A stretch of 64,000 nucleotides of DNA, taken from NCBI RefSeq assembly GCF_009933255.1, contig NZ_MAEI01000014.1:1-64000 (forward strand), in the 5' to 3' direction. Shown here one piece after another: positions 6,125 to 64,000 of the stretch (positions are counted from its first letter, which is position 1; every line of letters starts with the position of its first letter). The notes beneath the pieces were generated by a model, which was not told the DNA's origin, did not search any database, and saw only the letters and a program-made list of their open reading frames with translations. The stretch comes from Enterococcus diestrammenae. Its GTDB lineage: Bacteria; Bacillota; Bacilli; Lactobacillales; Enterococcaceae. The position numbers and the translations under genes are program-made.

Positions 6125-6420
6125 AAAAAACACGCGGAGTTGCCTTTGCAATAGGTTTCCCTACTCCAAAAGACGCCCCCGCGTGGTCCCACTTTTGTTC
6201 ACAACAAGGCTGCCCCCTTCCCTAAAAGAAGGAAAATCACAAAAACTTGCTGTCTTAAGATGGGTAACGGTCGTTGCCGTAGCCGGTTTTGACCGACTCC
6301 ACTCCCAGATGCATTTCCCATCCTTCGTTTGACTGCCTCTCAGCTAAGAGCAATCTCTCTGTAAAACTGGTTAGATGGTACTTCGTCTGTTCAACGTGTT
6401 TATGATTGTTAGCGAAAAAC
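6125..6420 (-). promoter_or_regulatory. T-box riboswitch (cysteine) upstream of cysE-cysS
   Basis: The minus strand between gltX and cysE has a T-box motif, AAAAGTGGGACCACGCGG (about 6178-6195), followed by a terminator whose descending arm CCGCGTG (6131-6137) runs into TTTTTT (6125-6130). Upstream sequence folds into a long stem I region; GGGAAATGCATC holds a UGC triplet (6311-6313), a plausible Cys specifier codon. The same position is used by a Cys T-box in Bacillus. When uncharged tRNA-Cys binds, the antiterminator should form and cysE-cysS-mrnC-rlmB-rae1 should be transcribed. The specifier is inferred from position and downstream genes, not from a full fold. Confidence 0.85.
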
Positions 6421-8205: not shown

Positions 8206-9429
8206 TTAACGATTGTTGCGGTTGTGTCGATTGTTTTTCCCACTCCCATTACTATTTCCAGTAGCTGAATGGCTGCCTTGTTGGTTGTCATAATTGCTGT
8301 TGACTGCTTCATTTTTATTATCAATGCCTCGACTAGAATGAGCAGGTTTGGCGAAGATCATGCGTCCCGCTGCCGTTTGTAAAGCACTGGTGACAACAAC
8401 AGTCAGGCGTTCATTCATATAGTGTTGGCCATCTTCCACCACCACCATTGTGCCATCGTCTAAGTAGGCCACCCCTTGTTGCCGTTCAGTCCCAGCTTTT
8501 ACCACCAGGACATCCATATTTTCACCGGGAATGACTACCGGTTTGACCGCATTGGCTAGTTCATTGATGTTTAACACCGGCACGTTTTGAAATTCGGCGA
8601 CTTTATTTAAGTTGTAGTCGTTAGTGACCACCGTCCCATCCAAGAGCTTCGCCAATTTCAAAAGCTTGCTATCGACTTCTTGGATTTCTTCAAAATCCCC
8701 ATCATACATTTCAACTGAGATGCCGGATTCTTTTTGTAAAGCATTTAAAATATCTAAGCCTCGACGCCCCCGCACCCGTTTCAAGCTATCACCAGAATCG
8801 GCGATATATTGCAGTTCGTAAAGGACGAAGTTAGGAATCAAGATCGTCCCTTCAATAAAGCCAGTTTTGGCAATATCATAGATGCGCCCATCGATGATTA
8901 CGCTAGTATCCAAAATCTTATATTTGCGAAAATGATCGTCGGCCTTACGCTCCAACATCTCTTGTTGGGCTTCAGCAGCTTCTTCGGCTTTTTTCTTGTT
9001 GGAAGTAAAAATCTTTTTCCATTCTTCAATCCTTGTTGTGGAAATTTGAAAGCCTAGATAACCTAACAAAATCATGATGAGAAAAGGAGCGACACCTTTA
9101 GCAAAAGGAATATCCCAATTGTAAAAAGGTAAGGAGATAATCACCCCGATCAGCAAGCCGATAATCGTCCCAATCGCTCCAAAGAGTAAATAGGTCAGAC
9201 TGAGCTCACTTAATTTTTTTTCGATATACTTCAGGGCAGAGGAAATGTGATTCACCAGAAATAATGATAATAAAAAGAAAATAAGTGCTCCAAGAATAAG
9301 ATTGGTGAAAACATTATTGAGCCATTGGTTTTGCCCTTGATTGATTGCTTCCCAAGCAACCGGCATAAAGGAAACCCCAAGACTCGCCCCCGCCACCACA
9401 AGTAAAGTAGTGATGACGCGTTTTTGCAT
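8206..9429 (-). CDS. yacL: PIN-TRAM domain membrane protein YacL
   Basis: This 407-residue protein has four predicted N-terminal membrane segments (for example VITTLLVVAGASLGVSFMPVAW and NLILGALIFFLLSLFLV), then a cytoplasmic PIN nuclease-like domain starting YKILDTSVIIDGRIYDIA with acidic positions continuing in VVTNDYNLNKVA, and a TRAM RNA-binding-like domain (GTERQQGVAYLDDGTMVVVEDG). The last 40 or so residues are a polar Asn/His/Ser/Gly-rich tail, probably disordered. The family sits between radA and gltX in many Firmicutes; its function is not established, but membrane-linked RNA processing is a reasonable inference. Confidence 0.9.
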   Translation of the reverse strand: MQKRVITTLLVVAGASLGVSFMPVAWEAINQGQNQWLNNVFTNLILGALIFFLLSLFLVNHISSALKYIEKKLSELSLTYLLFGAIGTIIGLLIGVIISLPFYNWDIPFAKGVAPFLIMILLGYLGFQISTTRIEEWKKIFTSNKKKAEEAAEAQQEMLERKADDHFRKYKILDTSVIIDGRIYDIAKTGFIEGTILIPNFVLYELQYIADSGDSLKRVRGRRGLDILNALQKESGISVEMYDGDFEEIQEVDSKLLKLAKLLDGTVVTNDYNLNKVAEFQNVPVLNINELANAVKPVVIPGENMDVLVVKAGTERQQGVAYLDDGTMVVVEDGQHYMNERLTVVVTSALQTAAGRMIFAKPAHSSRGIDNKNEAVNSNYDNQQGSHSATGNSNGSGKNNRHNRNNR

Positions 9430-9477
9430 AACTGTTCCTCTCTTTCATATAGTGTGCTAAGAGACGGTGGTCAGAAG

Positions 9478-9680
9478 GTGAGTGCTAAGACGGGAGGGAC
9501 AGCGTGACGCTTTTTGTCACACTGGCACTCACGGATTATCACCGAACCTTCTCCGCCTCGAAGCCATCCTAGTATAGTGTGCTGATGCTAGTTCGATTGA
9601 AGTGATGGGTTTTTGCTTCATGTCAAGCGTTAGCGGTGCATCGAACTGTATGAGTAGTCTCAGTGACTAGCTGCCATAAG
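9478..9680 (+). repeat. Structured intergenic repeat, copy A
   Basis: In the 330-bp gap between yacL and radA the plus strand has three blocks shared with the window's right end (63819-63985). Block 1 is a hairpin with an inner GTGAC/GTCAC stem (9504-9508, 9516-9520) inside GTGAGTGC/GCACTCAC (9478-9485, 9525-9532). Block 2 is TTCTCCGCCTCGAAGCC (9549-9565). Block 3 is a branched fold closed by AGTTCGAT/ATCGAACT (9590-9597, 9640-9647) with an inner TGAAG/CTTCA stem and the conserved AAGCGTTAGC. CCATAAG (9674-9680) ends it. No open reading frame is present. Confidence 0.75.
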
Positions 9681-9758: not shown

Positions 9759-11129
9759 TCATCCAAAGACTTTCTTTAACGTTTCGGAAAGTGTCGAAAC
9801 CGGGACGATTTGAATCCCTTCTGGCGCGGTCCAGCCGCCAAGATTGTTTTTAGGCAAATAGACTTTGGTAAAGCCGAGTTTTTGGACTTCTTTGACCCGT
9901 TGTTCGATGCTATTGACGCGACGGATTTCACCCGTCAAGCCAATTTCACCGATAAAACATTCGGTAGGTTCAGTACCTTTTTCTTTGTAGCTTGAGGCAA
10001 TCGCCACAGCAATCGCCAAGTCAATGGCCGGTTCATTGAGCTTCACCCCACCCGCTGCTTTCAAGTAAGCATCTTGATTTTGCAGCAGCAGCCCCGCTCG
10101 TTTTTCCAAGACTGCCATGATTAAGGAGACGCGATTGAAATCCAGTCCCGTGGTGGTTCGTTTGGCATTACCGAACATGGCAGGCGTCACCAAGGCTTGA
10201 ATTTCCACTAGAATTGGTCGGCTGCCCTCCATAGCAACCACGATGGCCGAACCAGTCGCTCCGGCCAGTCGTTCTTCGAGAAAGACTTGGGAAGGATTGG
10301 CAACTTCATGAAGCCCATCGGAACGCATTTCAAAAATCCCGATTTCATTGGTAGAGCCAAAACGGTTTTTCACCGCCCGCAAAATGCGGAAACTATGGTG
10401 TTTTTCTCCTTCGAAATACAATACTGTGTCCACCATGTGTTCCAGCATTCGTGGCCCAGCAATGGACCCTTCTTTGGTGACATGTCCCACGATAAAAATC
10501 GCAATACCATTGGATTTGGCAATCTTCAATAGTTCTGCCGTGGTTTCTCGCACTTGACTGACGGAACCGGCGACACTGGTCACATCTGGTTGGGTCATCG
10601 TTTGAATTGAATCAATGATGACATAATCTGGCTTCAGCTCTTGGATGGACTGGGCAATTTCATGCATATCCGTTTCCGCATACAAGTAAAATTCCGTATC
10701 GATACTACCCAGACGTTGCGCCCGCATTTTGATTTGTTCGGCACTTTCTTCCCCAGAAACGTATAAGACTTTGCCGCCGATTTCGGCTAACTGCTGAGAG
10801 ACTTGTAAAAGTAGCGTGGATTTCCCGATTCCGGGATCACCACCAATCAACACGAGAGAACCTGGCACCACACCGCCACCTAACACCCGATTGAGCTCCT
10901 CTAACTTAGTTGCCACACGAGGTTCTTTTTTGGGTACGACTTCCGCTAGTTTGGTCGGTTTGGTCTTTTCTCCCGTCCAAGTGGTCCGGACGCGACGATC
11001 GGTGGTGTCTTGAATCTTGACCTCTACTAAAGAATTCCAGCTGTTACATTGGGGACATTTTCCAAGATACCGAGGAGAAATATAGCCACAATGTTGGCAT
11101 TCAAACTGTACTTTGGCTTTTTTTGCCAT
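9759..11129 (-). CDS. radA: DNA repair protein RadA
   Basis: This 456-residue ATPase promotes branch migration during recombinational repair. It starts with a four-cysteine zinc finger ([18 protein letters not shown]), then a RecA-like core with Walker [15 protein letters not shown], the RadA-specific KNRFG motif, and a C-terminal Lon-protease-like domain ([21 protein letters not shown]) that lacks proteolytic activity. Length and domain order are typical. It follows dut by 61 bp and probably shares its transcript. The start at 11129 follows CGGAGGTG. Confidence 0.96.
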
Positions 11130-62921: not shown

Positions 62922-63031
62922 AGTGGGAAACTTTTCTAACCTTCCTTAAAACCCAAGACAAACCATTGCACAAACTGGCTTTTTGCGTTAAAGTAGTGGT
63001 TGTGAAACATTTTTGTGAAACAATGGAAAGT

Positions 63032-63053
63032 AAGCGGTGTGAACCGCTTTTTA
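63032..63053 (+). promoter_or_regulatory. Small hairpin in the rsmG leader
   Basis: AAGCGGT and ACCGCTT form a 7-bp stem with a GTGA loop, followed by TTT, about 15 bp before the rsmG start. TTGTGAAACA and TGTGAAACA repeats lie just upstream (about 62999-63022). It could attenuate or stabilise the leader. Confidence 0.45.
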
Positions 63054-63068
63054 TGGAAAGGAACGCTT

Positions 63069-63785
63069 ATGCTGCCTGAAGAATTTAGACAGCGCCTTGA
63101 AGCTGACGGCATCGTATTGGATGACGGACAGATGGCGCAATTTGCGGAGTATTTCCGCTTATTGGTGGAATGGAATGAGAAGATGAATCTCACCGCCATC
63201 ACGGAAGAAAAAGAAGTTTACTTGAAGCATTTTTATGATTCGGTGATGTTGGCTCTGGCGGTGAAACTTGATCCGGCGGCCGCTATTTGTGACGTGGGAT
63301 CGGGAGCCGGCTTTCCTAGCATTCCGCTGAAAATCGTCTTCCCGGAACTTACGGTAACCATCGTGGATTCCTTAAACAAACGGATTACTTTCTTGACCCA
63401 GTTGACAGAAGCATTGGGCTTAAAAAATGTCCATTTGTATCATGATCGGGCGGAAACTTTTGGACAAAACAAAGCCTTTCGCGAAAGTTTCGACTATGTG
63501 ACAGCCCGAGCGGTGGCACGTTTGAACGTCTTGGCGGAATTGTGTCTGCCGTTAGTTAAAAAAGAGGGCTTTTTCTTAGCTTTGAAAGCAGCCAAAAGTG
63601 ATGAAGAATTAGCCGAGGCAAAACCGGCTATTGCTACTCTGGGTGGTAAATTTATTGAGGAAAAGGTCATGTCTTTGCCAGTAGCTGGCGACCAGCGGCA
63701 TTTTCTCGTGATCCAAAAGAAAAAAGAAACACCCAAAAAATACCCTCGTAAACCAGGACTGCCCAATAAGCAGCCGCTTAAGTAG
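63069..63785 (+). CDS. rsmG: 16S rRNA (guanine-527-N7)-methyltransferase RsmG
   Basis: This 238-residue enzyme (GidB) methylates G527 of 16S rRNA with S-adenosylmethionine. [22 protein letters not shown] is the cofactor-binding motif, and [14 protein letters not shown] and [14 protein letters not shown] are family segments. The ATG at 63069 follows AAAGGA; an earlier in-frame start at 63015 is discarded. In Firmicutes it is followed by noc/parA/parB, which would lie beyond the window. Confidence 0.96.
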
Positions 63786-63818: not shown

Positions 63819-63985
63819 GGCTTCGAGGCGGAGAAAGCTCGGCAATAAGCCCAAACAGTCAATGTGACGAAAACCGTCACAGTGCCTGTTTGTTCTTATT
63901 GCAGCTACTCATGGAGAGTACGCGTACAGTTCGATGCACTGCTAACGCTTGGCATGAAGCGGAAAATCACTGCTTCAATCGAACT
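63819..63985 (-). repeat. Structured intergenic repeat, copy B
   Basis: On the minus strand the branched fold closed by AGTTCGAT/ATCGAACT (63985-63978 and 63935-63928) comes first, with inner TGAAGC/GCTTCA and the conserved AAGCGTTAGC. A hairpin with outer GCAATAAG/CTTATTGC (63902-63895, 63849-63842) and inner GTGACG/CGTCAC follows, then TTCTCCGCCTCGAAGCC (63835-63819). Sequence blocks match copy A (9478-9680), while paired bases in the outer stem differ on both sides. It lies right after rsmG, with no gene inside. Confidence 0.75.
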
Positions 63986-64000
63986 TGTATCAACTTCAGA

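Follow-up and report, generated by a model that had tools for sequence, protein, structure and literature searches.

Two elements in the radA–yacL and rsmG–parA gaps

The window, meaning here the whole 64,000-nt stretch of Enterococcus diestrammenae DNA that we analysed, contains two related intergenic repeats: copy A, which sits between radA and yacL, and copy B, which sits between rsmG and a parA/soj-like gene. The upstream neighbour of copy A is radA/sms, at 9759–11129 on the minus strand (TIGR00416, 653 bits, above cut-off), and on its other side lies the yacL-like gene, at 8206–9429 on the minus strand, for which 80 related loci were kept. The name yacL is taken over from the original prediction; in NCBIfam, the sole match of the protein is to an ATPase and falls below the cut-off. 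Copy B is preceded by rsmG at 63015–63785 on the plus strand (TIGR00138, 169.6 bits, above cut-off) and followed by the parA/soj-like gene from contig position 64039 onward (L018:640–1404), whose ParA-type matches are each listed one below their own cut-off.

The original prediction described copies A and B as one dispersed structured repeat that shares five collinear sequence blocks. All five blocks are found exactly in both copies, and four of them (AGTTCGATTGAAG, GCTTCATG, AAGCGTTAGC and GCATCGAACTGTA) follow the same order in each. The other, TTCTCCGCCTCGAAGCC, precedes the four in copy A (9549–9565) and follows them in copy B, so that four of the five are collinear. Aligned by blastn, copies A and B match far beyond chance in both the branched part (E=1.3e-21) and the hairpin part (E=9.1e-8). 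The description as a dispersed structured repeat is borne out, but what was taken for one repeat is actually two elements that are also found separately, which we call unit 1 and unit 2: unit 1 occurs also alone or in tandem, and unit 2 occurs without unit 1 on contigs C1 and C18.

In copy A the two units lie side by side, an order that recurs on contig C17. Unit 1 of copy A is a complete 112-nt imperfect hairpin at 9454–9565 on the minus strand, directly upstream of yacL, the distance from its 3′ end to the yacL start codon being 24 nt. It scores 108.4 bits (E=5.3e-27) in a cmsearch with the unit-1 covariance model R1, a match that holds by construction because this unit belongs to the model's own alignment (A1). 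On the sense strand for the gene downstream, it begins with GGCTTCGAGG and ends with CTCTTAGCAC, and its tip carries the GTGAC/GTCAC core that had been pointed out originally; the unit begins 24 bp ahead of the start given then (9478), and the hairpin is larger than described. A 13-bp linker (9566–9578, minus strand) separates it from unit 2 and resembles the yacL-side flank of unit 1 (in the sense direction, ACTATACTAGGAT / ACTATATGAAAGA), which makes the linker a possible target-site duplication. Unit 2 of copy A occupies 9579–9677 on the plus strand and consists, in the consensus fold, of a branched fold (AGTTCGAT/ATCGAACT) and a hairpin (GTAGTC/GACTAG); it scores 103.5 bits with the unit-2 covariance model R2, which was built partly from this very unit.

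Copy B is arranged differently. The first 84 nt of its unit 1 lie at 63819–63902 on the plus strand (R1, 45.5 bits), and they are followed by an 87-nt unit 2 at 63903–63989 on the minus strand, nested in the 3′ arm of unit 1 (R2, 109.4 bits, with a model match of 63898–63996; this unit, too, was used in building R2). The last 28 nt of unit 1 then begin within the window, at 63990–64000 on the plus strand, and continue to contig position 64017, so that the final 17 bp are past the window end and the two pieces add up to 112 nt (84+28). This exact layout of 84+87+28 rules out the suggestion that copy B is a permuted tandem unit. Unit 2 interrupts unit 1 between its positions 84 and 85, and the hairpin had therefore appeared to be on the other side. 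Copy B may also be a chimera, since its first piece is closer in ungapped comparison to unit a2 (58/84) than to unit a1 (53/84), while its last piece matches a1 at 24/28 positions. Both copies do run antisense to the neighbouring genes in the orientation in which they were first described; read on the other strand, they stand directly upstream of yacL and the parA/soj-like gene.

Unit 2 is 87–99 bp long, with a branched fold plus a hairpin. In its consensus fold covariation is weak: 5/31 pairs show a double change among five good copies. The fold of unit 2 is thus plausible and weakly tested, because just five good copies are at hand. A search for unit 2 in 105 family genomes found it in 1, the E. 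diestrammenae genome under study, with stricter filters by which diverged forms may be missed, and in 73 sources the five copies already known were joined by just three weak matches. We regard unit 2 as a second element, found in the studied genome alone. A lone unit 2 on C1 near 27 kb (L013) is flanked by a duplicated stretch of ~80–100 bp, and at C1:32848–32945 (L325) there is a fold that is unit-2-like but diverged (33.5 bits), adjoined by a smaller hairpin of similar form.

Fold and distribution of unit 1

Ten units from the studied genome were aligned with MAFFT, without structure (alignment A1). They are 111–112 nt long and form a single long hairpin, in which 92.2% of the cells of a 40-pair structure are paired. 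Double changes occur at 25/40 pairs, a number that none of 500 shuffles reached, and the covariation score of 0.552 was likewise reached by 0/500 shuffles; the 41 further pair types are not unusual (151/500 shuffles). The same fold was then followed in a wider alignment (A3), for which the best 150 of 193 matches were aligned to the covariance model, giving 146 distinct units from many genomes. Part of the pairing in A3 is built in because the alignment was made to the model, and in these 146 units 90.4% of cells are paired, with 1836 double-changed cells against a shuffled mean of 567. Neither this count nor the covariation score was matched in 500 shuffles, and all 40 pairs show a double change, as they do in 6/500 shuffles. 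When the partners are slid by 1–3 columns, pairing falls to 38–46%. The compensatory change that had been read from the outer stems of copies A and B is thus confirmed for unit 1, and the covariance-model search proposed along with it recovered further copies as well as covariation.

Across genomes, unit 1 is mostly 106–113 bp and near-constant in length; its internal loops are fixed, and its 7-nt tip loop is partly conserved. An unpaired TC opposite TC near the hairpin base is kept at 88/74%, the TC of the middle loop at 92/96%, and three bases of the tip loop at 91–97%; on average, conservation is only somewhat higher at unpaired than at paired positions (mean top-base frequency of 0.68 versus 0.61). 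One unit from the studied genome, which had helped build the model, scored 126 bits on the sense strand versus 44 bits on the reverse strand, and therefore the loops give the hairpin a direction. The end letters of unit 1 differ between species while their pairing stays.

Searched by blastn with either copy, the studied genome returned 11 and 13 rows, on contigs C1, C17, C18, C19 and C54; these rows include the query itself, cross-hits between A and B and several rows per locus. With the unit-1 covariance model, at least 27 distinct places were found at E≤1e-3, where 150/1583 first-look candidates were scored, opposite-strand duplicates were taken out of 41 rows, and ten of the 27 had built the model. 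The element extends well beyond this genome. It was found in 61/105 genomes of the same family at E≤0.01, the 105 being taken as Enterococcaceae by inference; in 63 of the 395 genomes that were sampled across the order (E≤0.001), with 25 of the 63 lying outside the family; and in 20/36 genomes searched behind 37 of the 80 yacL loci. Among others, Enterococcus lactis, E. mundtii, E. quebecensis, E. termitis, E. columbae, E. dispar and Latilactobacillus fuchuensis carry it, and it is absent from the searched genomes of E. asini, Enterococcus sp. CU9D and E. casseliflavus. Among the 80 kept loci, the nearest yacL-like proteins are those of Enterococcus sp. CU9D (89%) and E. asini (87%).

A blastn search with copy A in 40 relatives found nothing at E≤1e-3, and yet several of those genomes carry the structure, so the sequence has diverged while the structure remains. 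The blastn result alone would suggest a repeat private to one genome, a reading that is countered by the covariance-model matches in relatives. Unit types are genome-specific in sequence (174 units compared, with opposite-strand and partial repeats left out). In the same radA–yacL gap, repetitive-looking DNA is also seen in E. columbae, Ca. E. avicola, E. alcedinis and E. timonensis (L051, L068, L091 and L086, respectively): Ca. E. avicola and E. alcedinis each carry three matches to unit 1 that run in the opposite orientation, E. columbae has one weak match (E 0.048), and E. timonensis has none.

A plasmid collection was searched as well. One unit from Enterococcus sp. DIV0212c gave no match there, and a unit from E. 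lactis matched 124 records, including 98 from Enterococcus, 13 from Lactococcus, 6 from Lactiplantibacillus and five from Gram-negative bacteria; there were no clean empty sites among the matches listed. Some records of the collection look like pieces of chromosome (groEL, rph). An Enterococcus-type unit is found in CP069369.1, a record labelled as a Klebsiella plasmid that may stem from an assembly mix-up, and NZ_CP143580.1, a 747-kb record labelled as an E. faecalis plasmid, apparently holds chromosomal genes, so its label or assembly may be off. With such records among them, a location on plasmids is only as good as the labels.

Arrays, filled and empty sites and gene edges

Unit 1 forms head-to-tail arrays with locus-specific linkers. 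Among linkers of 8–16 bp (n=68), 67/68 are 10–14 bp long, and their identity is 0.81 within an array versus 0.65 between arrays; compared with the right flank, linkers give 0.62 versus 0.41. The outer flanks match weakly overall, with a best 8-mer identity of 5.0–5.2 on average versus 4.8–4.9. Exact outer-flank 8-mers were found in 5 of 106 clusters versus ~0.5 by the null, and several of these include a remnant of another unit. Linker likeness together with the weak outer-flank match would make a target duplication of ~8–9 bp a fair inference, short of proof. The ends of unit 1 pair with each other.

Filled and empty versions of one site were compared in the gap between PTS IIC and IIB genes of 22 genomes, a comparison between species that was read by eye with a query from a genome (G095) that is itself among the 22. 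Ten of these gaps have no unit, and 12 have units or a probable remnant, with degraded units in G017, G099 and G108. The empty sites hold just the spacer before the Shine-Dalgarno sequence, for example GCGTAATAACATTAGGAGG, and by eye these spacers are AT-rich without an obvious stem-loop.

Unit 1 lies in AT-rich DNA between genes, most often just before a Shine-Dalgarno sequence or after an opposing stop. Positions were counted at 93 loci with a called right neighbour, leaving out L151 and L152 (duplicates of L150) and L179, L213 and L240 (no right neighbour). In 34/93 of them the 3′ end of the array is 17–31 nt before a same-strand start codon, and in 29/93 it is ≤30 nt from the stop of an opposite-strand gene, so that one or the other gene edge is found at 63/93 loci; the mirror positions at the 5′ end account for 10/87. 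Where the original prediction had both copies pointing toward oriC, what recurs among the loci is their placement with respect to genes. These loci come from top-scoring matches rather than a random draw, their gene calls are simple ORF picks that favour Shine-Dalgarno starts, and they are not independent because some are the same gene in different species. All seven own-genome loci of unit 1 that were first aligned or read (7/7) are before start codons.

Eight downstream genes were scanned in the studied genome, and these (yacL-like, parA-like, rpe, atpA, atpD, P-type ATPase-like and two with weak matches) are unrelated, with no function shared among the eight. On contig C19 of this genome, units precede both atpA and atpD (L114 and L124). 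The genome behind an E. canintestini locus (L175) has four tandem units before a gene start that resembles the start of the parA/soj-like gene next to copy B, and the same kind of gene start is therefore occupied in two genomes. The frequent docking before ribosome-binding sites suggests that the units could alter the expression of many operons.

What maintains the fold, and comparison with known repeats

Where the conserved form is an RNA, the transcribed strand retains G·U pairs but not A·C mismatches, so a count of the two can be used to ask at which level a structure is kept. Among 5701 cells of the 146 distinct units, there are 162 G·T and 163 A·C, both rare. As a control, T-box leaders were taken from 18 yacL loci of related species and from the window itself, where the leader lies at 6166–6403 on the minus strand (Rfam RF00230, 101.9 bits); such a leader is present in 18/20 related yacL loci searched. 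In the RNAalifold consensus of this control, 80 G·U stand against 10 A·C in 784 cells. Unit 1 is unlike the T-box leaders in that G·T and A·C are both rare, and therefore its fold is probably kept mainly in DNA rather than RNA.

The balance is not perfect. A single column pair holds 82/162 of the G·T cells, and without that pair there are 163 A·C against 80 G·T, which leans mildly toward the opposite strand and leaves the strand symmetry imperfect. With the pair removed, G·T versus A·C is 37 versus 76 in units at starts, 29 versus 35 in units at stops and 14 versus 52 in the others, and an RNA-like G·U excess is absent from either site class. In the RNAalifold fold of the ten own-genome units, 14 G·U and 6 A·C are found among 360 cells on the sense strand, and 7 of each among 370 on the other strand. 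The original choice between an RNA and a DNA structure is thus narrowed by pairing statistics that favour DNA, though not perfectly. A search of the whole window with 4227 Rfam families gave no match in either copy at gathering score; the best relaxed matches were snoRNA-like and CRISPR-repeat-like, and we took them as chance and rejected membership of a known Rfam family. This simple computed comparison of DNA-level and RNA-level structure is of use, since repeats of this kind may be taken for non-coding RNAs.

We consider it probable that each of the two copies is a composite built from mobile palindromes that are short and non-coding, with unit 1 a relative of EFAR/Efa-1 that folds as DNA. 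Unit 1 would fold on itself, as a cruciform or as a single strand, into one long hairpin, and an enzyme encoded elsewhere would move it by recognising the fold rather than the end sequences. The units would then accumulate head-to-tail, with linkers of ~10–14 bp that resemble short target duplications, and those inside operons would be co-transcribed and may modulate the flanking mRNA. NEMIS and ERIC hairpin repeats are said to modulate flanking mRNA. No mobilising enzyme was found. We tried the Y1 transposase (PF01797) as a candidate, since rejected: it is present in 70/105 family genomes, but it is missing from six copy-rich genomes (G009, G093, G095, G097, G100 and G104, each with 19–34 unit-1 matches), and the Y1 transposase gene of the studied genome contains two stops. 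A broader proposal, that one class of mobile DNA across Lactobacillales is defined by its DNA fold, with fixed loops that would be recognised, insertion at gene edges and re-insertion into arrays, is possible, but we hold it tentatively and lean against it; if it is true, such elements can diverge past sequence recognition between species and still be one mobile family.

Several other explanations were weighed against mobile palindromes. The hairpins might be substrates of a recombinase that reads single-stranded DNA structure, forming a folded-site cassette system in which arrays grow by ordered insertion; integron attC sites and the ends of IS200/IS605 provide the models. Such a system would account for a fold kept though the end letters differ between species, for asymmetric loops fixed strongly enough to tell the strands apart (in the score of a unit that helped build the model), and for arrays with locus-specific linkers and mixed unit types. 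We think it unlikely, as no cargo genes were seen and no recombinase was found to track the repeats, Y1 being absent where copies are plentiful, and the 8–9-bp direct repeats, if real, would better suit a DDE-type transposase. It is distinctly less probable that the units are neutral quasi-palindromes, paired by template-switch copying between their arms and spread by homologous exchange only. Copying from arm to arm at replication could also yield double changes, few G·T intermediates accompany them, and sequence types are genome-specific, but the near-constant length and the retention of internal loops that copying would erase (both TC loops and the tip bases, the latter kept at up to 97%) speak against it.

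A conserved cis-regulatory RNA before start codons, whether riboswitch-like or an autoregulatory leader, would fit the strong covariation, the 34/93 loci just upstream of a same-strand start, atpA and atpD included, and the G·U surplus of the ten own-genome units. We regard this as very unlikely, given that the downstream genes are unrelated, that 29/93 loci are antisense to a gene whose stop adjoins, that the G·U excess of T-box leaders has no counterpart in the wider family, that related species have empty sites, and that neither copy matches Rfam at gathering score. Ordinary transcription terminators that are alike by chance seem barely credible: T-rich DNA often follows the hairpin, which sometimes lies between convergent genes, but terminators would not explain a fixed architecture of ~112 bp or repeated and tandem copies between same-strand genes.

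On the reading that we prefer, mobile palindromes that fold as DNA, a kind of repeat known from E. faecalis is split by sequence searches into unrelated-looking local repeats, which a structure model joins across an order. Identifying the enzyme behind their movement would reveal how non-coding palindromes spread in Gram-positive bacteria. In the literature, no description of the family beyond E. faecalis was found by a search that most subscription papers fell outside, and the parts available of one further paper, on large perfect inverted repeats (PMC13155455), have no bearing on unit 1.

Among other known systems, integron attC sites are also imperfect hairpins that are read by structure, carry fixed extrahelical bases and stand in arrays; they differ in that no cassettes were seen with unit 1. 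REP/RAYT systems resemble unit 1 as palindromic repeats near gene ends, but no Y1 transposase tracks unit 1, and REPs are given as 20–40 bp in the available text of PMC3733652. Unit 1 also invites comparison with NEMIS/Correia, RUP and ERIC. The terminal repeats of those elements are conserved in sequence, whereas the end letters of unit 1 vary between species with pairing kept. The likeness is that they, too, are MITE-like hairpins of ~100–170 bp near genes and possibly co-transcribed (partly after the available text of PMC3733652 and PMC1590033).

The closest parallel is with EFAR/Efa-1. EFAR elements carry two stem-loops and are mostly 170 bp long, within a range of 42–650 bp, and they insert into stem-loop targets, deleting them. 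Unit 1 is likewise non-coding, intergenic, palindromic and multi-copy in enterococci, and it shows presence and absence at homologous sites (one site, between species). Gene ends are a further point in common, in that Efa elements favour sites close to the 3′ ends of coding regions, according to the available text of PMC1590033. In NZ_CP143580.1, labelled E. faecalis, there are 7 unit-1 model matches, at each of which a ~42-nt hairpin is followed after ~15 nt by the 110-nt unit-1 hairpin (one of the small hairpins is imperfect, with several mismatches), so that these copies consist of two adjacent hairpins over ~168 bp and are matched by the same covariance model. The 42-nt hairpin presumably fits the EFAR size range. 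A hairpin of ~45 nt stands beside unit 1 in 7/7 E. lactis loci looked at, and the 42-nt companion was not seen beside the aligned copies of the studied genome. Efa-1 of E. faecalis is described, in the part of PMC2267715 available, as 163 bp long, present in 65 (18) copies and formed of two adjacent stem-loops, and EFAR is listed among MITEs in an excerpt of PMC3733652, which cites De Gregorio et al. 2009.

The studied genome differs from EFAR/Efa-1 in several ways. It is without the two-hairpin plan of ~163–170 bp, its unit 1 being alone, in tandem or with unit 2, and the branched unit 2 is nested in or adjacent to it; copy A has no blastn relative in the 40 related genomes; and the seven of its unit-1 loci that were first aligned or read all lie before start codons. 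Because the two-hairpin anatomy in the E. faecalis record is like that of Efa-1, we place unit 1 with the EFAR kind on grounds of anatomy. The form in the studied genome is a new variant of this kind, without the companion hairpin and joined by unit 2.
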